From a virus: DNA of 38,173 bases. Below are positions 1-38,173 of the stretch, piece after piece (the first letter of the stretch is position 1; the number at the start of each line of letters is the position of its first letter). The position numbers and the translations under genes were made by a program. Location: IMG/VR virus record IMGVR_UViG_3300007735_000695, positions 1 through 38,173 of that record. One strand, written 5' to 3'. The notes beneath the pieces are model-generated. The model was not told the origin of the DNA. It was given only the letters and a program-made list of their open reading frames with translations, and ran no database searches.

Positions 1-127
1 ACCACGGACCACCCGCGCCGTAGGTAGTAAAGCGCCCATTTTTTTGCTGGCGCTTATAGGCTTGGTGCGGTCAGGCTCATATACCACACATCCCTTCACA
101 TTCTTCGCCAAATAAGTCTGGTTGCCC
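1..127. repeat. Terminal direct repeat, left copy
   Basis: These bases match 38047-38173 at 124 of 127 positions. The mismatches are 41 (T versus C at 38087), 55 (T versus G at 38101) and 127 (C versus T at 38173). The repeat is most simply the overlap of a circular assembly. In this left copy the base at 55 would put a TAA at codon 9 of the primase-helicase, while the right copy reads Ser there, so the right copy looks like the correct one. A real short terminal redundancy is the alternative. Confidence 0.9.
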
Positions 128-883
128 TTTTTCCTCCCAGGAACGGAGGTCAACCTGCTCAAGTGGCATTGCTGATTTATGAACAAAGGCTTGGCCCACC
201 ATCCCATGAAAGCCCGGCCTGATAGCGCGGTCAAATTCAACCACTGCCTTCCAATCCTCTGGCATTGTGTCTCGCATTTCCCGCCACTGGCGATCACTCT
301 TGTAAGGGCAGAAGATGCAGGAAGATTTGGGGGCAATGGGGTAGCCATTGCGTTCCAGCCAATTCAAACACCCTTGCCGTGTCATACCTTGTTCAATCAG
401 CGGCCAGCGGTTTTCAACCCAGCCGATTTCTGCGGGCTTCATCCTGTGGGCTTCGTCAGTGCTGATCCCAAGCCATTGCTCCACCTTAATCCCGTTTGGG
501 ACGCGGGCCTTTGGTTCTACCCCAAGTAATTTCCTGATTTCGCGCTGCACCACCCGCGCCTTGAACTCCTTGGCGCACTGCTTTGGCAGCATGGTTTTAT
601 TACCCTGCTGATCGGTCACAAACCATGGCGGCATTGCGGTTCGTGTCACTGGGCTGGCGGCAATCTGGATCGCCAGATCACCCAATGACAAACCATCCCG
701 CCTTGCTCTGATCAATTGGAAATTGAGTTGCCCTTCAAGCCACTCCAAATGGCGGTAAACCCCGGAAGGCTCCCAGCCTGTATCGGCAAAGATGGCGTAA
801 TCTGGTTTCTCTAGTTCTCCTTTGACCACCATCAGCGCCAGTGTGGTGCTTTGGACGCCCGCACCAAGTGACAGTATTTTCAT
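77..883 (-). CDS. PAPS reductase-like / PP-loop ATPase family protein
   Basis: The 268-aa product starts at ATG 883, preceded by GGGGA, and reads MKILSLGAGVQSTTLAL. The early SLGAGVQSTT stretch is a PP-loop-type ATP-binding motif of the phosphoadenosine phosphosulfate reductase / adenine nucleotide alpha hydrolase superfamily. A later SSCIFCPYKS segment (about residues 190-199 of this start) carries a CxxC pair, common in the phage members. Family members reduce PAPS or activate substrates for sulfur transfer, for example DndC-type enzymes. The true substrate here is unknown, and no dnd partners or sulfate-assimilation genes are present. A 21-codon ORF overlaps its start. Across the circular junction its TGA overlaps the ATG of the primase-helicase, so it sits in the early replication operon. 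A longer in-frame reading back to 943 is possible, but the 883 start has the better ribosome-binding site. Confidence 0.85.
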   Translation of the reverse strand: MKILSLGAGVQSTTLALMVVKGELEKPDYAIFADTGWEPSGVYRHLEWLEGQLNFQLIRARRDGLSLGDLAIQIAASPVTRTAMPPWFVTDQQGNKTMLPKQCAKEFKARVVQREIRKLLGVEPKARVPNGIKVEQWLGISTDEAHRMKPAEIGWVENRWPLIEQGMTRQGCLNWLERNGYPIAPKSSCIFCPYKSDRQWREMRDTMPEDWKAVVEFDRAIRPGFHGMVGQAFVHKSAMPLEQVDLRSWEEKGQPDLFGEECEGMCGI

Positions 884-945
884 GGCTGCTTCCCCGGATA
901 TTCGCTGTGTGGCGGGTATTCTGGGTCTTTGAGTGGGATGCACAT
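880..945 (-). CDS. Possible 21-aa leader peptide / microprotein
   Basis: ATG at 945 is preceded by GAGGAAAC and opens 21 codons beginning MCIPLKDPEYPPH. The TGA overlaps the ATG of the PAPS reductase-like gene (ATGA). The peptide is Pro-rich, with one Cys and two Tyr. Coupled stop-start and a clear Shine-Dalgarno suggest it is translated, either as a small protein or as a coupling leader. I know of no family for it. It could also be a chance ORF. Confidence 0.45.
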   Translation of the reverse strand: MCIPLKDPEYPPHSEYPGKQP

Positions 946-3101: not shown

Positions 3102-3251
3102 TTAGACCCCCGCCAGCACAGTTCGGGAGGGGATATTGAAAGTGCTGGCGGAGGTATCCGCACCGTGCGGATTTAACCGGAAGCCCGTCGCGGGTTCGTA
3201 GTAGTCGCGCCAGGCTTCCGGGCGCGCAATGGTTGGGAGGCTAGTTACCAT
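3102..3251 (-). CDS. Uncharacterised 49-aa early protein
   Basis: ATG at 3251 lies inside the end of the regulator gene (11-nt overlap), and the TAA at 3102 is 2 nt before the RusA start. The product begins MVTSLPTIARPEAWRDYY and is soluble, with a cluster of aromatic residues near position 15-24. An AAGG-type site lies 9 nt upstream of the ATG. It fills an otherwise empty gap in a tightly packed operon, which supports it being real. No family is recognised. Confidence 0.65.
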   Translation of the reverse strand: MVTSLPTIARPEAWRDYYEPATGFRLNPHGADTSASTFNIPSRTVLAGV

Positions 3252-3522
3252 CGCGCGCAGCCTTTTCGGGCAGATGTCCGTCCCGGCGTCCGGTACAGAT
3301 ATGCGCCCATATTTGGTTGGCAGTCACCTCGTCAGTGCTGCACATTTCAATAACAGGTATCAGCCGCACGATAGGCGGCGCAATACCCCCATATTCACCG
3401 CGATATGTCAGCCAGATTAGCCACCGGCTGGCAGTGGCGGTTGATACGCCAGCCGCTTCAGCCAGATCGCGGAGCGTGTAGCCGTTCTGCTGCAACAGCT
3501 TTCTATAGGGAAGGTGATCCAT
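3241..3522 (-). CDS. Helix-turn-helix transcriptional regulator (Cro/repressor-like)
   Basis: The 93-aa product from ATG 3522 contains a classical HTH: LRDLAEAAGVSTATASRWL at about residues 18-36. The C-terminal half is short and has no peptidase motif, so it is closer to Cro-size regulators than to full CI repressors. It is the first gene of the leftward early block. A consensus-like promoter (TTGACA, 17 nt, TAGGAT) places the transcript start at or next to the ATG, and an inverted repeat covers the -10 and start codon, so autorepression and a leaderless mRNA are likely. An in-frame ATG at 3564 lies upstream of the promoter's -35 box and is unlikely to be used. Confidence 0.85.
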   Translation of the reverse strand: MDHLPYRKLLQQNGYTLRDLAEAAGVSTATASRWLIWLTYRGEYGGIAPPIVRLIPVIEMCSTDEVTANQIWAHICTGRRDGHLPEKAARDGN

Positions 3523-3537
3523 AGGGCGAATCCTATG
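3520..3537. promoter_or_regulatory. Inverted-repeat operator candidate
   Basis: CATAGG and CCTATG are perfect 6-bp arms separated by 6 nt. The dyad overlaps the -10 element and the start codon of the HTH gene, an ideal place for autorepression by that protein. Confidence 0.6.
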
Positions 3538-3558
3538 CCTCATAAATTTTCGTGTCAA
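3530..3558 (-). promoter_or_regulatory. Sigma70-type promoter for the leftward early operon
   Basis: On the minus strand, TTGACA (3558-3553) is followed by a 17-nt spacer and TAGGAT (3535-3530). The expected start site is 3522-3523, which coincides with the A of the regulator ATG. No Shine-Dalgarno can lie on such a transcript, so translation would be leaderless. Confidence 0.75.
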
Positions 3559-3578
3559 GCGCATTTTTTCACTTGACG
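3554..3578. promoter_or_regulatory. Back-to-back -35 boxes / second inverted repeat in divergent control region
   Basis: GTCAAG (3554-3559) and CTTGAC (3572-3577) are inverted copies. The left arm is part of the leftward -35 box, and the right arm begins TTGACG, a -35-like box pointing toward the rightward operon. No good rightward -10 is visible at 16-18 nt, so the rightward promoter is weak, activator-dependent or placed elsewhere. Confidence 0.45.
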
Positions 3579-21582: not shown

Positions 21583-22602
21583 TCAGAGAAGCGCCGCTAG
21601 AACACTAGCAGCATCATTGACAGTCCCGGTTTTAGCGAGACGCTGCTTTGCACGGGTTAGGTCCGTCACATTCCTTTGGGGTACAGATTGCACGGGGCCG
21701 GGCTTCACCGGCCTTGTCGCGGAAACCTGTGGTTTGACCGCAGCCTGCGCCTTCTGCTGACCACGATCATACAGCATGGCTTTGCGGAGGATAGCAACGT
21801 GTTGCGCCTTCGTAAGACCATTAATGTCTTGCTCAGACGCACCATTCTCCATCAACCAATCGCGCAACATCTTCTTTTCGCCCTGCGCTACCTTCTGATC
21901 TTTCCAGGCTGGAATGATCTCTTGTAGCTTCTGCGCCTCAGATGTTAGCGTTGCCTTTAGTTGCTCGGTTTGTTGCTGCTGGAAAGCCTGCGTCAAACGC
22001 TGCTTCTCGGCCTCGATAGCCTGAAACTTCGCCAGACGATCTTCCTGCACCTTCTTCCACTGCCGCTCCAAGCGAATGGCGTTCTGGGGGTCTTCTTCAT
22101 AAAGACGATCCCAATCCGGCTCTGCTTCAACTTGAGCGACATTCTGCAACTGCTGCTGTAGTGCCCCTAGAAGAGTGGCGTACTGCGCCCGCTCTTGCCG
22201 AATGGCTTCAGCTTCCGCTTGGAACGCCTTGCGCTCTTCCGCGAGTTGCTGGGTCTTTCGGCTATAGTCCGCCGTCCTTGAATATCCGCGCGCCAGTTCG
22301 TCCAGCGTCACCTCAACTTCTTCGCCCGCCACCTTTACTTTGACAGCTTGCGGAAGCCTTTCACGAGGCTGCTCTTCGACCTGTGGTTGGTCATCATCTT
22401 CAGCGGTTTCCTCAACGGCTTCAGCAGCAGCTTGCGCTACTGGTGCCTCCGTCTCGGCGCCCTGGGCTTGCGCTTCGGGCTGCTGCGCCTCACCGGCCTG
22501 GGTATCGCCGTCATCAGCGGCCAGGATATCGGCTATGGCATCTTGTGCCTGGTGGATTCCGATCCCGCCTTGGGCGGGGGTGCCGGATGATTCAGACATC
22601 AA
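21583..22602 (-). CDS. Scaffold protein
   Basis: The 339-aa product has an acidic, Gln/Ala/Glu-rich N-terminus (about 1-85) with no fold signals. A short conserved segment follows (KVKVAGEEVEVTLDELARGYSRT, described here as one motif near 88-110), then a long coiled coil (about 115-260) with heptad-rich KAFQAEAEAIRQERAQY. The basic C-terminus ends ASVLAALL. Position between portal and capsid genes and coiled-coil content make an assembly scaffold the clear choice. Confidence 0.82.
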   Translation of the reverse strand: MMSESSGTPAQGGIGIHQAQDAIADILAADDGDTQAGEAQQPEAQAQGAETEAPVAQAAAEAVEETAEDDDQPQVEEQPRERLPQAVKVKVAGEEVEVTLDELARGYSRTADYSRKTQQLAEERKAFQAEAEAIRQERAQYATLLGALQQQLQNVAQVEAEPDWDRLYEEDPQNAIRLERQWKKVQEDRLAKFQAIEAEKQRLTQAFQQQQTEQLKATLTSEAQKLQEIIPAWKDQKVAQGEKKMLRDWLMENGASEQDINGLTKAQHVAILRKAMLYDRGQQKAQAAVKPQVSATRPVKPGPVQSVPQRNVTDLTRAKQRLAKTGTVNDAASVLAALL

Positions 22603-28658: not shown

Positions 28659-29215
28659 GCCACCTTCTCAAACAACATCAGTGTATTCCGCCCCCATGGG
28701 GCAGGCTTGCGCCGGGTAGTCTCCTGAAACATCGCTGTTTCCACCACCAGATTGCGGAACCCGTGCTGGCCAAACTTCTTCACCCAGTACTCCGCCGTTT
28801 GCTCATTCACATGATGGTGACCGCCCTGGCCCGGCACCGCATGACACATCAACACACGATCCGCCGCCTTCATGGTAGCAAACCAATTAGCCTCATACTT
28901 CGCATCCACATGCTCCACAAACTCAGTGGAAATACACAAGTCAAACCGCTGCCCAATGTCCAGCGGTCCCTTCGTATAATCATGCAAGATAATCGGGCCG
29001 CACTTCGCCTTCAGAATGGCATCTGGGTGCCCCTCTACCCCCAACACCCGACACCCCATGTCTTGGAACCACTTCAGATTGACCGCTGTGCCACACCCGA
29101 CATCAATCACAGATTCCACACCATATTCCAGCAGCAACCAGCCCCAGATATCCGGCGTGAACGTATGCCCATCGCCTTCCTCATAATAGCCACCCAAATG
29201 CGCCATCTCATTCAT
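28655..29215 (-). CDS. SAM-dependent class I methyltransferase
   Basis: The 186-aa product has motif I SVIDVGCGTAVNLKWF (about 35-50), the acidic GVEGHPDAI that binds the ribose, and DLCISTEFVEHVDAKYEANW, a UbiE-like motif. Later HHHVNEQTAEYWVKKF matches sugar- or small-molecule-directed methyltransferases in cell-surface loci rather than DNA methyltransferases, which is inference. It overlaps both neighbours by 4 nt within the glycan cassette. Confidence 0.85.
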   Translation of the reverse strand: MNEMAHLGGYYEEGDGHTFTPDIWGWLLLEYGVESVIDVGCGTAVNLKWFQDMGCRVLGVEGHPDAILKAKCGPIILHDYTKGPLDIGQRFDLCISTEFVEHVDAKYEANWFATMKAADRVLMCHAVPGQGGHHHVNEQTAEYWVKKFGQHGFRNLVVETAMFQETTRRKPAPWGRNTLMLFEKVA

Positions 29216-29817
29216 GCGTGAACCTCGCTCGACATTTTACCCTGCAACGTCAACTGACTGACCAGTTCGGGCAACACCGTCAGCACTTTCAACTTGGGCA
29301 ACACCTTCTGCTCCAACAAAATATCAACCGGCGTATTCGCTGGCTTGGTGTACTCAATCAACGTTGGAATAGCCCGCTGCCGCCACCAAATCGCCGCCGT
29401 ACACAACGGATACCTCACATCATACAACTCATCCCGATACTTGCGCTTCCACTTCTGGTCATCCACACAACAACTCTGCAAATAGACCCCGTCCACATCC
29501 TCATCCACCTTGGCGCGGATAGCGGCCCACTTTTCCAGAAAGTTTTCCGGTAATACTACATCATCCTCGAAGACCATGAACTCGTCAGCACCATCATGCT
29601 GCGCCAGGTTCCAAGCGAAATGGTGACTCAAAACCAGCGCCGTCGCACCACGGGTCACATAATAATCCGAGTGCATGGGTATTTCTGATTTGATACGCAT
29701 GGATTTCCCATACACACCCCAGACCCAAGTTACCGGCACACCCTCACGCTCAAACTCTGCCTGCACCCGCGCCGTGCGCTCAGGCGTCTCACGCAGCGAA
29801 ATACAATAGTACCTCAC
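29212..29817 (-). CDS. Glycosyltransferase family 25-like
   Basis: The 201-aa product starts GTG 29817 as MRYYCISLRETPERTARVQA, the GT25 (LPS glycosyltransferase) N-terminus with the YCISLRE and ERTARV pattern. TALVLSHHFAWN and FMVFEDDVVLP (E84, D85, D86) follow, giving the donor-binding acidic motif. The GTG overlaps the stop of the 52-aa gene (GTGA). It would add a hexose to LPS-like or protein acceptors in the cytoplasm. Confidence 0.85.
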   Translation of the reverse strand: MRYYCISLRETPERTARVQAEFEREGVPVTWVWGVYGKSMRIKSEIPMHSDYYVTRGATALVLSHHFAWNLAQHDGADEFMVFEDDVVLPENFLEKWAAIRAKVDEDVDGVYLQSCCVDDQKWKRKYRDELYDVRYPLCTAAIWWRQRAIPTLIEYTKPANTPVDILLEQKVLPKLKVLTVLPELVSQLTLQGKMSSEVHA

Positions 29818-29984: not shown

Positions 29985-30638
29985 TCACTCCGCCGCATCG
30001 CGGAATAGATCACCCTGCCGCTGGGCTTCTTCAATGCGGCGGCAAGCGATGTCGAAATACTTTGGTTCCATCTCAATACCAATAAAAGGATGGCGCATCT
30101 GCACAGCGGCAACGCCTGTTGAACCGCTGCCCATATAAATGTCTAAAATTGTACCACCAGAGGGGACTTTAGCTTTATCAATACACCACCGCATTAAAGT
30201 CACAGGTTTTTGCGTCGGATGTTCAGCGCCATCCTGCATCAATGCAACCCTATTACAGTCAAATATTCTTAGCGCACCATTGTTTGATGTCCAGGCTAAT
30301 TCTCCATCAGATTGATGTATTCTTTGCCCTTTATCCCAAACAAACCATTGTCCCGTTGGAGGCAAACAATCAGCAAAATAATTACCTCCCCATATTACAC
30401 AAATATCAGAAAGACTCGGTATTTTCATCAACCATTTTTTATCTGGGCGTTTTGAATCCCATCCAAGAAATTCATATTCTTTTCTTCCCCCATGGCTCCC
30501 AGTCGATCTAGATTGACCATCCTTACCAATGCCATAAGGCGGATCAGTAATCACTGCCGCCGGTCTTTCCAGCGTCGGCGCAATCTCCCGGCAGTCACCA
30601 AGATACAGCGTTGCCAGCCCTATCTTTTCAACCCGCAA
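29985..30638 (-). CDS. DNA adenine/cytosine N-methyltransferase (orphan)
   Basis: The 217-aa product has DPPYG at 32-36 (motif IV), the HPTQKP signature at 140-145, then ILDIYMGSGSTGVAA (motif I, FxGxG region, with Tyr in place of the usual Phe). This is the beta-type order of amino-methyltransferases that methylate N6-A or N4-C. No restriction enzyme is nearby, so it is an orphan, probably protecting phage DNA. Its central part (about 30150-30500) is visibly more AT-rich than its neighbours, suggesting recent acquisition. Confidence 0.9.
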   Translation of the reverse strand: MRVEKIGLATLYLGDCREIAPTLERPAAVITDPPYGIGKDGQSRSTGSHGGRKEYEFLGWDSKRPDKKWLMKIPSLSDICVIWGGNYFADCLPPTGQWFVWDKGQRIHQSDGELAWTSNNGALRIFDCNRVALMQDGAEHPTQKPVTLMRWCIDKAKVPSGGTILDIYMGSGSTGVAAVQMRHPFIGIEMEPKYFDIACRRIEEAQRQGDLFRDAAE

Positions 30639-30653
30639 GCAAACCTCCCATCA

Positions 30654-32207
30654 TCACACCACCCCTTTTACCGCCCTTCGAAGCGGCTGGCCCCAGCGAG
30701 CAGAATACCCGCCAGACCCAGACACAGCCGCCGCGACACCCGCAAACGTCAAACAAAACGCATCCGCCTTGTCAGGGCTTCTTCCAAGACGGCGCTTCAT
30801 CTGCGCCTTTGGCTCAATCTGAATCTTGCCCGCACTGGTGACAGTATACAGCGGCCCACACAACTCATCCACCAAAGCCTCATCATTGGGAATGGTGCAA
30901 TCCCGCGCCTCAAACCACTCCCTGGCCTTCCACCATAATTCATCTCTTAGACGCTGGAACCGATTGCCATCTATCGCTGGCAACTCCGCCACATTCACAC
31001 CCCGTACAGGTAAGCTCAGTTCTCTGAGCCTATCTACAACCCCCGCACCCAAGCCAATCACATCCACCATAATCTCAATCGGGCGCATACTGCCTGGCGT
31101 CGCATCCCACTCAACCTTGATCAAACCACACGTTTCCATCAAGTCCTTACCGCGCCACATCTTGATGGGTTCGGTGATCGCATTACCCCGGCGCTTCGCC
31201 AGCGTGGTACTGTCATCACCAAACCGCGCCACATCCAAACCCCATACCACGGGCGCCGTCTGGCTAGGTTCCACCTGGCGAGTAGTGGCAGTCTCTATAA
31301 GATGTCGCGCAATAAGAGCATCATCATCTCCAGCAGGAAACTCTCCAAGAACGCGGACACGATACTGATTTGACCCATCACCATACTGCGCCACCATGTC
31401 CTCTAAGAAAGCCCTGTCCACCGTATCCGCATCGTGACAACTAACCTTCCGGCCCCACCACCGCTTCTGGTTCTTGGTGAAAGCATCATAGAAATACCCG
31501 CTGGCCCTGGTGGGGTTGCCTGTCATTACAACCTTGGCACCCTCAGTAGATAAAGCACCCTGGCCCACCTCGAACACCACATCAGGAACACCAGAAGCCT
31601 CGTCAATCACGAAGAGAAGGTTCTCACTGTGGAACCCCTGCAAGGCTTCCGGCTGTTCCCGGCGGCTGGTTCTGGCCACCGCAAAGCTATCGGGTACGCC
31701 AGCTAATTCGATCTTATCCGATTTAATCTCCAACAGGCGCCGCATTCCCTCCGGCAACTTGCGATGCCACTTACCAATCTCAGACCACAAGACATCAGAT
31801 AACTGGTGCGCCGTGTTGGCAGTGCAAACCACCTTGGTGGGCATTCGGGTCAGGAGCCACCACAACACCAACCAGGACAAGAACGCAGTCTTCCCAACAC
31901 CATGGCCGGATCGAATCGCCACACGGTCTTTGTTGGCAATCGCCCTAAGGGCCTCCGCCTGCCACTTCTGCGGGGTGGCGCCAAGCATGGACTCCACAAA
32001 CAAAACAGGATCCGCCGCCAGTTGCTTGATGATGGCGGCTTGTTCTTCGGGTGTCGGGGCAGCAGGACCGGAAGGGGGCGGGGTAGCTTGGTATTCAGGG
32101 TGCGGGGGTGGCAAGGGGGGTTGTACACCATTAGCTTCCGCTTCGGCAGCGGCTCGCGCCGCTGCCTCCGCTGCTAGTCTAGCCCGCCGTTTGGGTCTGC
32201 CTGCCAT
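30654..32207 (-). CDS. terL: Terminase large subunit
   Basis: In the 517-aa product a Pro/Ala-rich leader (1-55) precedes the ATPase. Walker A is GHGVGKT (101-107), Walker B is LLFVIDEA (197-204), and VMTGNPTRASG is the coupling motif. The nuclease domain begins WGLDVARFGDD (D325) and includes MVDVIGLGAG and a late KADAF Asp. It drives ATP-dependent DNA packaging into the capsid and cuts the concatemer. It lies downstream of the small terminase gene with a 204-nt spacer rather than the usual tight overlap. Confidence 0.95.
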   Translation of the reverse strand: MAGRPKRRARLAAEAAARAAAEAEANGVQPPLPPPHPEYQATPPPSGPAAPTPEEQAAIIKQLAADPVLFVESMLGATPQKWQAEALRAIANKDRVAIRSGHGVGKTAFLSWLVLWWLLTRMPTKVVCTANTAHQLSDVLWSEIGKWHRKLPEGMRRLLEIKSDKIELAGVPDSFAVARTSRREQPEALQGFHSENLLFVIDEASGVPDVVFEVGQGALSTEGAKVVMTGNPTRASGYFYDAFTKNQKRWWGRKVSCHDADTVDRAFLEDMVAQYGDGSNQYRVRVLGEFPAGDDDALIARHLIETATTRQVEPSQTAPVVWGLDVARFGDDSTTLAKRRGNAITEPIKMWRGKDLMETCGLIKVEWDATPGSMRPIEIMVDVIGLGAGVVDRLRELSLPVRGVNVAELPAIDGNRFQRLRDELWWKAREWFEARDCTIPNDEALVDELCGPLYTVTSAGKIQIEPKAQMKRRLGRSPDKADAFCLTFAGVAAAVSGSGGYSARWGQPLRRAVKGVV

Positions 32208-32411
32208 GAGAGCCTGATTCTATCCTAAATTTTCACGGGGGGTAAAGGGACGTTTTGCCTTTTTGCCCCCACCCCACGGGGGGGGTGTAAGTACATATAT
32301 GTCACCGCCAGCCCGCCCCCGCCGCTTTTTGAAGGGGGGGTGGGGCCGGGGGTGCCAGTTTTGGGGCGCCCGGCCTGGAACCGCATAAGGCCCATTATGT
32401 AAAATTACCTG
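32208..32411. other. Noncoding spacer between terminase genes, G-run rich, possible packaging site
   Basis: This spacer holds no convincing gene. The plus strand has G-runs at 32334-32340, 32342-32345, 32348-32352 and 32363-32366 with short loops, a possible G-quadruplex. Another C-run/G-run pair at about 32264-32285 could form a stem, and ACATATATGT (32293-32302) is a perfect palindrome. Location between terminase subunits makes it a reasonable pac/cos candidate. Confidence 0.5.
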
Positions 32412-32930
32412 CTAAGTGCCTGATATGATTACGTTCTTGCGTTTGCGTGCATCGGCATTGTTTCCTAGTTTTTTTACCTCGTTTCCCGTCTCATGGTCCA
32501 CGTCAATAATGCGCCGGGCTTCCCGTTCTTTCTGGCGCATTTTGTCATTGGCAAGCCTAAGCGCTTCCACATAGGATTCCCCAGCCTCAATGGTATGTGT
32601 TGTTTTGTCTCCATAAATTCTAGGCGCGATCTTCCCGACAAGCCATCGCCTAGCATCAAATTTAAGGCGCGCAAGCTGCGCTTGTTCCGGGTCTATGGTT
32701 TTTTCTACATCCCGAACGGCTTTTTCAGCAATTGCATGGGCTTGTTGTTCACGGGCGCGCGCGTATGCTTGCTGCCATCGCCCATCTAATCGCGTCAATT
32801 CGCCATGCACCACATAGCTAGAAGGGAAGCCGTCCTTCCCATATAAATCACAAAGCAATTCCCCATTACCGACACGGCGCAGCAATTCTGGGATGTATTT
32901 TTCGGGATCGTATTTTGGTGGATATGGCAT
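32412..32930 (-). CDS. terS: Terminase small subunit (Sf6-like)
   Basis: The 172-aa product starts MPYPPKYDPEKYIPELLRRV (ATG 32930). It has the HTH-like LLCDLYGKDGFPSSYVVHG and the conserved KFDARRWLVGKIAPRIYGDK of Sf6/P22-type small terminases. The frame is open for another 64 codons upstream, but those cross a strong terminator and are not credible. It recognises the packaging site and stimulates TerL. The C-terminus is basic (DARKRKNV). The large-subunit gene follows. Confidence 0.9.
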   Translation of the reverse strand: MPYPPKYDPEKYIPELLRRVGNGELLCDLYGKDGFPSSYVVHGELTRLDGRWQQAYARAREQQAHAIAEKAVRDVEKTIDPEQAQLARLKFDARRWLVGKIAPRIYGDKTTHTIEAGESYVEALRLANDKMRQKEREARRIIDVDHETGNEVKKLGNNADARKRKNVIISGT

Positions 32931-32957
32931 AAGCCAAAGGATACCTAATCCAAGCCC

Positions 32958-32985
32958 ATAAAAAAAGCCCAGCATTAAGCTGGGC
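32958..32985 (-). terminator. Rho-independent terminator (leftward)
   Basis: GCCCAGC (32967-32973) and GCTGGGC (32979-32985) form a perfect 7-bp stem with a 5-nt loop, followed on the minus strand by seven T residues. It ends the transcript of the small-gene block and separates it from the terminase and late operon. Confidence 0.85.
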
Positions 32986-33006
32986 CTATTTTGGTGCTGA
33001 TTCGGT

Positions 33007-33318
33007 CTAGATTCCGTCTCCCTCCCCAGGCTGACAGCCTCCCACCATGTCGAAGCTTTTGGCAAGCATGGCTTGCACCAAGGCCGGAAGATTCTTCCCT
33101 TTTGTCCATTTTGGCGGATCAATTCCGGCGATTCGAAGATTTAACGCCCAAAGCCTCCCGATTTCATAATTGGCTTGCCCTATCTGATCTGTAAATCGCC
33201 ATGAGTCGAAGGCTTTTCCTGCTACCATATCCGAATATCCTATCTGCGCCGCTATAACCGCCGGATGCGCCGCTAGGCCGCGTTTTGGAGCGCCACGTTT
33301 CAATGTGTTATTTTTCAT
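33007..33318 (-). CDS. Uncharacterised 103-aa accessory protein
   Basis: The product starts MKNNTLKRGAPKRGLAAHPA and has an aromatic, helical centre (FTDQIGQANYEIGRLWALNL). No metal-binding Cys and no membrane segment. It is the last gene before the terminator in a tightly packed leftward run of small genes. No family recognised. Confidence 0.65.
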   Translation of the reverse strand: MKNNTLKRGAPKRGLAAHPAVIAAQIGYSDMVAGKAFDSWRFTDQIGQANYEIGRLWALNLRIAGIDPPKWTKGKNLPALVQAMLAKSFDMVGGCQPGEGDGI

Positions 33319-35066: not shown

Positions 35067-35459
35067 TTAGGGATTTCTGGATTGATAATGGCTATGCAGC
35101 CTTTCCAGGGCCTGTTTTAATTGCCCTACCGCCTTGTCGGTTTCTATTCCCTTACATTCCGCCCAACCGCTGAGAGTGCCATGGCTCAGTACCGACCAGG
35201 CGACCACGGGCATTGTAGTCGTTCCTATTGAACGGCTAGCCCTCAAATACGCCTCCCTGGCCCCGAGCCTCCCAGCCTGCCCCGCATAGTAATCGTCCCT
35301 AAACCGCTTCGCAGCCGCGTGTAGGGCCTCTGAAATCATCCCCCTACCCAACATAGCGTCAGGCACCCAAAACCGCTCAGACACCGTTATATCGCCTTCC
35401 TGAATATCCGGCCCGAAGTCTATGCGTTCCGCCTCGAATGCCCGGCTCATGCTCAACAT
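35067..35459 (-). CDS. Uncharacterised 130-aa early protein
   Basis: The product starts MLSMSRAFEAERIDFGPDIQ and has a helical centre (EALHAAAKRFRDDYYAGQAG). The C-terminal helix ends QALERLHSHYQSRNP. Its ATG overlaps the upstream stop by one base (TAATG). No family recognised; position after the Prim-Pol gene suggests a replication or accessory role. Confidence 0.7.
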   Translation of the reverse strand: MLSMSRAFEAERIDFGPDIQEGDITVSERFWVPDAMLGRGMISEALHAAAKRFRDDYYAGQAGRLGAREAYLRASRSIGTTTMPVVAWSVLSHGTLSGWAECKGIETDKAVGQLKQALERLHSHYQSRNP

Positions 35460-36004
35460 TAGATCGGGATTTCGTCCTCGATCAATTGCCCCTTCCTTAC
35501 CACCTTCGCCTTCGGAAATGCAGCCTTGATTTCGGCGATAGGCGACGCCCCTTTTAGAACCCTGCCCACCTCCTCAACCGTCCAAGCCTCCGCGTTCCAC
35601 CCTTCCGCCTTAGCCCGCGCCAGGACCGCCTGTGCATGGGTATCATCCTGACAGATGCAGATCATGCCCCGCTCCACCTCATCCGCCTGTACGGTCACCA
35701 GCGGCCCCGGAAGCGGTTCGTGCCCGCCAGCCCGAGCCTCCGCTTCCAGTGCCCGCCATGCCCGCATCATCATGGCGTCCAATTCCGCCATATCCTCGCC
35801 AGCCATTATCGCCTGCCGGTGCATATCCTGGGCGCCAACGAATCGCTGCCGTGTCTCCGCCGACACCAGACGCGGGAGCCTATCGAACCCCCATTCTCTT
35901 TCCAGCCCCGCCACCAGCGTGTCCAGCGCACCCGCCATCCGAGAGCGCCATACCCATTCACCATTCGGCTCTGTGAGTGGGGCTAATATCTCTTCTTTCG
36001 CCAT
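35459..36004 (-). CDS. Uncharacterised 181-aa early protein
   Basis: The product starts MAKEEILAPLTEPNGEWVWR with a purine-rich ribosome-binding stretch upstream. Residues about 15-90 are helical (AGALDTLVAGLEREWGFDRL, MMMRAWRALEAEAR). The C-terminal half has a Rossmann-like alternation (GMICICQDD, AQAVLARAKAEGWNAEAW) ending in charged residues. No nucleotide-binding motif is certain. It is the first gene after the GTTGC repeat array, so the array could regulate it. Confidence 0.7.
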   Translation of the reverse strand: MAKEEILAPLTEPNGEWVWRSRMAGALDTLVAGLEREWGFDRLPRLVSAETRQRFVGAQDMHRQAIMAGEDMAELDAMMMRAWRALEAEARAGGHEPLPGPLVTVQADEVERGMICICQDDTHAQAVLARAKAEGWNAEAWTVEEVGRVLKGASPIAEIKAAFPKAKVVRKGQLIEDEIPI

Positions 36005-36036
36005 CTTTTCTCTCCCCTCAAATCATGGGTCTAAAA

Positions 36037-36158
36037 GCAACATGCAACATGCAACACACCTATAGGTGTGTGTTGCACGTGTTGCATGTTGCATTTAGAA
36101 GACCTGGCTTTGCAACATGGTGTTGTAAATGGTGTTGCATTTCGTGTTGCGTTGTTGC
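36037..36158. repeat. GTTGC/GCAAC repeat array (iteron or operator cluster)
   Basis: Ten copies of GTTGC or its complement GCAAC fall within 122 bp: GCAAC at 36037, 36044, 36051 and 36112; GTTGC at 36072, 36081, 36088, 36134, 36146 and 36154. The left group is spaced 7 nt apart. A perfect 18-bp palindrome, ACACACCTATAGGTGTGT, lies between the left inverted groups. The array fills the gap between the Prim-Pol/helicase stop and the next gene. Iterons for origin binding or operators are the main options. Confidence 0.8.
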
Positions 36159-36176
36159 TTTTCATATCACGCGACA

Positions 36177-38126
36177 TTAAAGAACCGCGCTATCATCTTG
36201 AATTACCCACACTCTTCCGCCCTTATGACCAACCATTTTCTTGTCAACAAGGGCGTTGTAAGTGCGGGACCATGTAGCCCCTTTTGACCTCTCATTCTCC
36301 ATGTAGACGGTTTCGAACCATTTGTTGCGCCAAATCTTTACGTCAATATGTTTTACATTAGGTAGATCGCCATAAGATTCTTGACCGTAACGGCTAACTA
36401 ATTCTTTGATGTTGTCCATGGCGATAGCTTCCCATTTATTACCCTTCGGCTTTTGGGGTTTTGCTTCCTCTGGATCGGCGGCGACCACGATGCAACTGGT
36501 GACGGGTTTGTCCCGCCGGTTTCGGCCTAGTTCGATGGTCTGGAGTTTGAATATCCACTCACCTTCTATCTCTAGATCGCGTTGCTTCTTCACGCTGGCG
36601 ACGGACGGGCTGTCTTTGCCTGCTTTGGTGATTTCTATCTCGGTATCCGTCGCGGCCCGCAACAGGCTATGCCCGCGCGCCCCTTTTGCGGTGTCCTTCC
36701 CTGAATGGTGTACGGCGTTGATATGGACGCCTGTGGCCTGCCTGATCCGGTCAATGTTGGTGACTAGCGAGCCCATATCGTCTGGTGCGTTCTCGTTCCC
36801 GCCAGCCAGGGCCCGGGATAGCGTGTCCAAAACCACTAGCCGCACCGGCGCCTTCATTTGCTCCATAGCCCGCCTGATGGCGTCGATCAGCCTTTCGGTG
36901 TCGGCTTCCGGGTTTAGTAGGTTGATGGAGACGGGGATAATGGCAAAGGGGATTTCCTCGCCGTCTAGATTGTAGTGCTTTCTAAAGGCGGCGACGCGGT
37001 TGGAGATGCCGTGGCTACCTTCCAGGGCACAGTAGATCACGCCACCGGCTTCGGTGGTGCGCCCGTTCCACTTGATCCCTATGGCAACGTGTAGAGCTAA
37101 GTCGGTCATAAAGAACGTCTTGCCGCAGTTACTTTCGCCGTAGGTAACAGACATCCCGCCTTCGGTGAGAAGCCCTTCAACAAAATCGGCGGCGTCCAGA
37201 TTGGGGTGGATGGCGTTGAAATAAACCAGGGGCAACCCGCCCGAATCGCTGGTTTCTGATGGCGCGGTCAGTACCAGTTTTGATCGTGGCGGCGTCTCTA
37301 GCTTGATGATACCCCGGCCAACCCGGTCCAGCGTATAGCGTACTTTCATCCTGAACTCGGCTTCCCCGCGACCTGGCCGCGAGAAATCCACTTTACTCGC
37401 ATACTGTGGCCAGCCTTCCGTCACCACTTCTTCTTCGGTGGGGATGCGTCCTAATTGTCGGTATAAATCGGAAACCACCGCCAGAATGGTGTTCCTCATG
37501 TACTGCTCGCGCCCGTCCGTGATGGTGCCTTGCAGCCCAAGCGGCCCGGCTGCATGGATTACAGGGCTTACAGAACCCGTCCCATGGATCACATCCTGGC
37601 AGATAAGTTCCACCATGGATTCGGTCAGGCTGGGTAGCCCCAGGTCATCCACATGGGCATCAACGTCCCAGGAGTACTGGCGCCCGCTGGCGTGGACAGA
37701 AGGCGGCGCGACGATGAAACCACCATCGCCCCGGATGTCCATGCCCGGCAGGATGCCTTTTCTGGTGGGAACCTTCTTCCCAGGATGGGAGAAGAACCTG
37801 TGGCACCCGCCACCACCGGTCAGTGCTACCGGGCCAGCCCCGAGTCGCGGCAGCAATTGCTGTTCTGTGGCGGCGCCAATGTCGCCATCGAAATCCGCCA
37901 CAGTGAGATTACTGATGGCGCCGGTAACGATCCCGACCCCCATGGTGGGATCGGTAAACCAATCCTGAATCTCGGCTTCGGTAGCGCGCCGGTTTTGGAA
38001 TTGGTGCCAGGGAATGGCGGGGATTTTTTCGCCCCGTCTGACCGGCACCACGGACCACCCGCGCCGTAGGTAGTAAAGCGCCCATTCTTTTGCTGGCGCT
38101 GATAGGCTTGGTGCGGTCAGGCTCAT
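36177..38126 (-). CDS. Bifunctional Prim-Pol primase-polymerase / RepA-like helicase
   Basis: The 649-aa product starts at ATG 38126 (MSLTAPSLS), which overlaps the PAPS-like stop through the circular junction. An upstream GTG at 38135 is less likely. The N-terminal Prim-Pol (AEP) domain has GIVTGAISNLTVADFDGD with the acidic motif at 78-82, GGCHRFF near 107 and DIRGDGGFIVAPPS at 130-143. The C-terminal RecA/RepA-like helicase has GESNCGKT (330-337) and LVVLDTLS (430-437), and a late VHHSGKD sensor. The end (about 565-649) looks like a winged helix (YNALVDKKMVGHKGGRVWVI). It should prime and unwind at the origin, with host polymerase doing bulk synthesis. Confidence 0.92.
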   Translation of the reverse strand: MSLTAPSLSAPAKEWALYYLRRGWSVVPVRRGEKIPAIPWHQFQNRRATEAEIQDWFTDPTMGVGIVTGAISNLTVADFDGDIGAATEQQLLPRLGAGPVALTGGGGCHRFFSHPGKKVPTRKGILPGMDIRGDGGFIVAPPSVHASGRQYSWDVDAHVDDLGLPSLTESMVELICQDVIHGTGSVSPVIHAAGPLGLQGTITDGREQYMRNTILAVVSDLYRQLGRIPTEEEVVTEGWPQYASKVDFSRPGRGEAEFRMKVRYTLDRVGRGIIKLETPPRSKLVLTAPSETSDSGGLPLVYFNAIHPNLDAADFVEGLLTEGGMSVTYGESNCGKTFFMTDLALHVAIGIKWNGRTTEAGGVIYCALEGSHGISNRVAAFRKHYNLDGEEIPFAIIPVSINLLNPEADTERLIDAIRRAMEQMKAPVRLVVLDTLSRALAGGNENAPDDMGSLVTNIDRIRQATGVHINAVHHSGKDTAKGARGHSLLRAATDTEIEITKAGKDSPSVASVKKQRDLEIEGEWIFKLQTIELGRNRRDKPVTSCIVVAADPEEAKPQKPKGNKWEAIAMDNIKELVSRYGQESYGDLPNVKHIDVKIWRNKWFETVYMENERSKGATWSRTYNALVDKKMVGHKGGRVWVIQDDSAVL

Positions 38127-38173
38127 ATACCACACATCCCTTCACATTCTTCGCCAAATAAGTCTGGTTGCCT
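38047..38173. repeat. Terminal direct repeat, right copy
   Basis: This is the second copy of bases 1-127, with three mismatches. It carries the start of the Prim-Pol/helicase gene and the last codons of the PAPS-like gene, and reads an intact Ser codon where the left copy reads TAA. It is probably the accurate copy of an assembly overlap. Confidence 0.9.

Follow-up and report, generated by a model that had tools for sequence, protein, structure and literature searches.

The locus described here raises the question of whether a dense array of short repeats directly downstream of such a gene is the origin and, if so, which protein reads it. We addressed this question in the window, that is, the whole virus record of 38,173 bp, in which most genes are encoded on the minus strand. 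Positions 1-127 and 38047-38173, at opposite ends of the record, overlap by 127 nt with three mismatches, and therefore the genome is probably complete and circularly permuted; the start of the Prim-Pol gene is present twice, at both record ends. A phosphoadenosine phosphosulfate reductase-like gene (phrog_424; 77-943, minus strand) lies directly upstream of Prim-Pol across the record ends, and genes for a DNA methylase (N6_N4_Mtase; 29985-30638, minus strand) and a glycosyltransferase of family 25 (29212-29817, minus strand) lie beside the terminase genes. No relative of P0002 was found among isolated phages, and no other replication initiator was found among the window ORFs scanned. We propose, with a probability of roughly 0.8, that the array is the replication origin of this phage, its iterons and hairpin being bound by the predicted winged helix (wH) of the adjacent protein, which joins a Prim-Pol domain to a RepA-type helicase.

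The array lies, as the earlier note had described, between the Prim-Pol/helicase gene (minus strand, stop at 36177) and the next gene on the same strand (start at 36004). All ten exact copies of the pentamer, in both orientations within 122 bp, were found where that note had placed them, as were the partial 7-nt spacing (36037/36044/36051 and 36081/36088) and the perfect palindrome of 18 bp (table 1). Three features had been overlooked: one extra degenerate copy (GTTGT, 36122-36126), the extended form of the word, which reads NGCAACA on the coding strand, and a nested inverted repeat that surrounds the palindrome. Folded as single-stranded DNA, this inverted repeat (36030-36099) reached -30.9 kcal/mol compared with -10.9 +/- 2.3 kcal/mol for shuffled sequences (z = -8.9), and none of 200 shuffles folded as well. 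The claim that the density is far from random also held: the densest 122-nt stretch contained at most seven copies in 300 shuffled genomes compared with ten in the array, and the commonest 5-mer of any kind reached at most seven per 122 nt in 60 shuffles. GTTGC shows no genome-wide excess, with 111 copies in the window against 111.7 expected from shuffles. A chance or low-complexity origin of the array was thus ruled out by the shuffles. A DNA similarity search of the intergenic region against phage records returned nothing beyond short chance matches.

Table 1. Features of the putative origin region and its flanking genes (window coordinates; a dot stands where no strand is given).
Feature	Position	Strand	Basis
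Second downstream gene, unknown function, 130 aa	35067..35459	-	
Downstream gene, unknown function, 181 aa; does not track the iteron class	35459..36004	-	
70-nt imperfect inverted repeat, potential long stem-loop	36030..36099	.	20-nt arms, 95% complementary; DNA fold
Iteron array, ten GTTGC/GCAAC copies, putative replication origin	36037..36158	.	Pentamer counts; about 90 related loci share a homologous layout
Iteron group 3, three inverted copies (GCAAC at 36037, 36044, 36051) at 7-nt spacing; right arm of stem-loop	36037..36055	+	
Perfect palindrome of 18 bp, ACACACCTATAGGTGTGT; candidate element for unwinding or priming	36054..36071	.	
Iteron group 2, three copies (GTTGC at 36072, 36081, 36088); left arm of stem-loop on the coding strand	36072..36092	-	
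Single iteron (GCAAC at 36112), opposite orientation	36112..36116	+	Position kept in classes I and II
Iteron group 1, three copies (GTTGC at 36134, 36146, 36154), beside the Prim-Pol stop codon	36134..36158	-	Pentamer positions
Prim-Pol/RepA-like helicase/winged-helix replication protein, 652 aa	36177..38135	-	Pfam; RSF1010 RepA by sequence and fold
C-terminal wH domain, residues about 565-645, proposed iteron reader	36201..36443	-	AlphaFold2 models; structural matches
Predicted recognition helix H3, residues 615-631, including 619 and 620	36243..36293	-	Covariation with iteron bases -3 and -1

The adjacent replication protein matched Prim-Pol (PF09250) in its N-terminal part (E = 1e-31) and AAA_25, a RecA-type helicase domain, farther on (E = 1e-36); neither a D5 nor a VapE domain was found in it with Pfam, and the helicase is of the RepA-like AAA_25 type. 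Because homology begins at residue 4, the ATG at 38126 is a likelier start than the GTG at 38135. RSF1010 RepA was the only solved relative by sequence (1g8y, phmmer E = 3.4e-4) and was also among the closest folds (1nlf, TM score normalized to the target 0.66). The C-terminus had been said to resemble a winged helix, and the AlphaFold2 models and structural matches agree with this: the domain was modelled as H1-S1-H2-H3-S2-S3 with a pLDDT of 86-87, the structure model being built without two rows from annotated phage records, and it matched the winged helices of Orc/Cdc6, MCM and CRP in a fold search. That search returned winged helices in general and picked out no single initiator family, and a profile of the wH found no match by sequence among solved structures.

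The position of the array was compared with the nucleotide skew of the genome. The detrended cumulative GC-skew of the window has its minimum at 36059, inside the palindrome, and its maximum at 21805. In two class III relatives (described below), the minimum lies within 115 nt of their unrelated stem-loop; in other lineages it is mostly 0.03-0.2 of the genome length away from the array, and in one case 0.43. The GC-skew supports an origin in this area, without proving it.

We analyzed about 40 contigs that encode relatives of both flanking proteins, and three classes were observed. Class I (L091/L004, L013-L016, and L073) carries GCAAC arrays laid out as in the window. Class II (L005-L012, L099, L100, and L102) has the same layout, in which every copy, inverted ones included, is GTAAC; the iteron order (>>> < >>> and, beyond the palindrome, <<<) is kept with these words in L005-L012, and the central palindrome is of the same kind (CACCTTTAGGTG). 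Class III (L018-L034 and others) carries an unrelated stem-loop of about 95 nt with few repeats. In class III (L018-L034) and in L106, this stem-loop (gtccctagg..ctgcacgcgcaGTTGC..) stands in place of the array, and the helicase-wH half of the gene is replaced along with it. Lack of conservation of the array in relatives, which the earlier note had named as one part of its refuting case, was not what we found: the layout is kept, and the word changes with the reader domain.

The identities to the window differ along the locus. L091, with the same word, is 96% identical in the helicase, 92% in the wH, and 93% in the next gene; class II, with GTAACA, is 95-98% identical in the helicase, 49-54% in the wH, and 88-94% in the next gene; and class III retains 82-92% in the Prim-Pol domain and 82-91% in the next gene, with 15-30% in the helicase and wH. 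In this comparison the class is tracked by the Prim-Pol protein, not by the next gene. The mosaic contig L004/L091/L115 is mostly class II-like (75-99%) along 2.7 kb. The exception is a segment that begins about 290 nt ahead of the stop codon and ends about 150 nt beyond it; there the contig is 80-91% identical to the window and 52-80% to class II. This exchanged stretch of about 450 nt comprises exactly the array and the part of the gene that encodes the wH. The gene linker of the same contig still contains clustered copies of GTAACA, the class II word, as would be expected if the 3' cassette had been replaced later.

The survey was extended to 140 nonredundant stretches of 400 nt downstream of the homologous gene, including distant relatives and isolated phages. 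With an array defined as at least five copies of one NNNACA word, a frame that was imposed after inspection and misses other words such as GCACCGA in L081, 92 of the 140 stretches carried an array, and at least 17 different words were observed. By their NNN these included GGG (42), CGG (14), GTA (10), GCA (6), CCG (4), and GTG (3), with CAG, GTC, CGC, ACT, GAG, AGG, ATC, ACG, GGA, GAA, and GCG as further ones; the remaining 48 stretches include some with other words (as in L081) and some that are truncated or without an array. In a frequent plan, direct copies are followed by a palindrome that has a CCTTTAGG-, CCTATAGG-, or CCTAAAGG-like core, and this in turn by inverted copies; CCTWTAGG-like cores occur repeatedly in arrays across many lineages. 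Arrays directly after the replication gene were also present in the isolated Rhizobium phage 16-3 (GCGTGACA, 14 copies), in phage RHph_X2_25 (16 copies of GTGACA), and in the isolated Roseobacter phage CRP-811 (ten copies of ACTACA).

In 11 of 46 loci, the coding sequence itself contains a further cluster of the locus's own word, located in the linker that precedes either the helicase or the wH; for the 63 other words together there was a single case, which is the old word in the mosaic contig. These second clusters, reminiscent of the in-gene iterons of lambda O, lie about 1070-1110 nt before the Prim-Pol stop in L041 (similarly in L005, L010-L013, L074, and L147) and about 155-240 nt before the stop in L124, L174, L175, and L189. 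When viral contigs were scanned from the array side, for three CGGGACA at 10-nt steps, 49 of the 75 stretches found lay within 800 nt of the 3' end of a gene of the Prim-Pol/RepA-type helicase family, and several of the others came after different replication genes (VapE, D5/DUF5906, Zn-ribbon primase, or Prim-Pol). DNA-first scans with CGTAACA, CCGGACA, and GCAACA returned many arrays with no Prim-Pol/RepA-type helicase nearby, and the GCAACA matches may include coding repeats. In addition, GGGACA, CGTAACA, or CCGGACA arrays were observed near other replication-type genes, namely VapE-like, D5_N/DUF5906, DUF3987, Zn-ribbon primase, and Prim-Pol genes (L265, L264, L271, L276, L323, L326, L343, L346, L535, and L539). 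Because several arrays follow other replication genes, the layout with downstream iterons is wider than the Prim-Pol/RepA/wH family.

Residues that might read the word were sought by mutual information between protein columns and word bases across 44 clusters of wH sequences, with 957 tests over the helicase and wH. Residue 620 with base -1 ranked first (z = 10.7) and residue 619 with base -3 second (z = 7.9), and both residues fall in the predicted helix 3. The helicase columns had a mean z of 0.14 and a maximum of 6.8; because some of them also correlate with the word, shared ancestry contributes to the covariation, which clustering reduces and does not remove. In pairs matched for identity outside helix 3, residue 619 differed in 26% of same-word pairs compared with 81% of different-word pairs, and residue 620 in 28% compared with 63%; the next-best residue gained only 0.23. 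Examples are KRA-TW with GCA, KRV-TW with GTA, KKK-AF with GGG, KQK-AF with CGG, and KRQ-AF with CAG.

The prediction was then fixed beforehand and applied to loci found by DNA pattern alone. K or R was present at 619 in 16 of 16 GGGACA loci and at 620 in 15 of 16; among the CGGACA loci, Q, R, or S was present at 619 in 14 of 16, and the other two look misaligned. K619 itself occurred in 11 of 16 GGGACA loci compared with none of 16 CGGACA loci. Most of the GTAACA and GCAACA arrays found out of sample adjoined a different C-terminal domain or no helicase. A strict code of one residue for one base was rejected, since Q620 is shared by loci with CAG and loci with GTG, and V620 by loci with GTA and loci with GAA. 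As read from these alignments, the putative word-residue code is a tendency, not a one-to-one rule.

The array might instead be an operator cluster, bound by an HTH protein or by the replication protein itself, that controls the downstream early genes and is not an origin. The genes on either side of it run in the same direction, the window encodes a small HTH protein (3241-3564), and dense short sites would also fit cooperative repression. However, no sigma-70-like promoter was found in 35950-36250, changes in the word follow the wH of Prim-Pol, not the neighboring gene, and the neighbors themselves vary between lineages, no gene family being present in more than 11 of 44 loci. The iteron clusters inside gene linkers also argue against an operator, as does the observation that, in eight other phage records, there is essentially a single main cluster of repeated sites, besides in-gene copies in some and scattered singles. 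We consider a purely regulatory array unlikely, and a dual role, as origin and in autoregulation, may apply.

Highly improbable, in our judgment, is an RNA element, in which the transcribed stem-loop would terminate or attenuate transcription, or mark a processing site, between Prim-Pol and the next gene. The hairpin is strong (z between about -8 and -9 for both class I and class II, with different hairpins in class III), but no T-run terminator was found on the coding strand at the array, an Rfam scan of the array region gave no match, and iteron copies outside the hairpin are common, in an orientation and order that differ between lineages; nor would an RNA element predict covariation with a DNA-reading helix. 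Clustered repeats and palindromes occur in packaging, partition, and recombination sites as well (pac/cos, parS-like, or att), yet the terminase genes lie several kb from the array (30654-33122), neither an integrase nor ParB was found among the ORFs scanned, and the word covaries with the replication protein, so that we regard a site of this kind as the least probable of these explanations.

An iteron origin read by the winged helix of the replication protein, one of the two readings offered in the earlier note, is supported by the family-wide co-occurrence, the cassette swaps, and the recognition-helix covariation. At such an origin, the C-terminal wH would bind each iteron in the major groove via helix 3; residues 619 and 620 would touch the variable NNN, and the constant ACA would be contacted by other parts of the wH. 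Binding to the opposed iteron groups would load RepA-type helicase hexamers around the palindrome, where hairpin extrusion or melting may help loading; the helicase would then unwind the DNA, and the N-terminal Prim-Pol domain would lay the first primers, leading to bidirectional replication. The steps after iteron recognition are modelled on known replicons. The array and wH would be inherited together as a specificity cassette and would recombine as one unit, and related phages would therefore fall into different origin-specificity groups.

More tentatively, at somewhat less than even odds, we propose a fast-diversifying NNN-ACA code between initiator and iteron, in which ACA would be read by conserved parts of the wH and NNN mainly by residues 619 and 620, and in which exchange of the wH plus array cassette would switch origin specificity in one recombination step, giving incompatibility-like phage groups. 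As part of this tentative reading, K or R would go with G; Q, R, or S with C at -3; A with GCA; and V with GTA.

Several known systems share parts of this arrangement. SaPI Rep and SCC Cch2, initiator helicases of staphylococcal islands, use their C-terminal domains to recognize short iterons that lie just 3' of their own genes (PMC7581432). The array directly downstream of the initiator gene and the short iterons (5 nt in SCC) are common to both, and a C-terminal reader is predicted here as well; however, the SaPI/SCC helicases are of D5/AAA+ type, with a separate polymerase-primase in SCC, whereas here a RepA-like helicase (RecA fold) is fused to an N-terminal Prim-Pol, and the array surrounds a long palindrome and has a covarying NNN-ACA code. 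In pRN1, ORF904 (PrimPol-SF3 helicase-wH) has an essential stem-loop of about 100 nt directly 3' of its gene, the sequence of which diverges while the structure stays, and its authors proposed the same for phages (PMC4234260). Both systems combine an N-terminal AEP PrimPol, a helicase, and a C-terminal wH in one protein with a stem-loop 3' of the gene (70 nt here), but pRN1 has an SF3 helicase and was reported without iterons, whereas here the helicase is RepA-like and iterons dominate. Phage P4 alpha likewise unites primase, helicase, and an iteron-binding wH in one protein that acts at an iteron origin (PMC4234260). One multidomain protein with a wH and an iteron array are thus shared with P4, but the alpha primase is of the bacterial (Toprim) type, in contrast to the AEP Prim-Pol (PF09250) found here. 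The second site of P4 is crr.

With IncQ/RSF1010, the phage system shares a RepA-family helicase, predicted to be a hexamer, and a similar division of labor among primase, helicase, iteron binder, and origin palindromes. IncQ plasmids use three separate proteins (RepA helicase, RepB' primase, and RepC initiator) and iterons of about 20 bp. Unlike IncQ, the phage has no separate RepC or RepB', and one fused protein of 652 aa is accompanied by iterons of about 7 bp. Because the present system lacks one defining feature of each of these families, it is set apart from SaPI/SCC, pRN1, P4, and IncQ. Kazlauskas et al. (2018) proposed that C-terminal WH domains of primases from mobile genetic elements recognize the origin (PMC5862659); the passages in question give no cognate sites, whereas sites and covarying residues are proposed here. 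The suggestion of an undescribed origin type therefore stands only in part: a downstream iteron origin is known from SaPI/SCC (PMC7581432) and a stem-loop origin from pRN1 (PMC4234260), and the combination observed here is a variant of those. In the open-access literature searched, no origins were described for phages with Prim-Pol/RepA-type replication proteins, and, as far as that literature shows, joint evolution of a word with its reader seems to be a new observation.

Taken together, the layout would provide a rule for sequence-based origin finding in phages, prophages, and satellites, with the two isolated phages, Rhizobium phage 16-3 and Roseobacter phage CRP-811, as test cases. The paired changes in iteron and recognition helix, with the natural swaps as controls, would make it testable by what means the match between an initiator and its origin is preserved as the two diverge.
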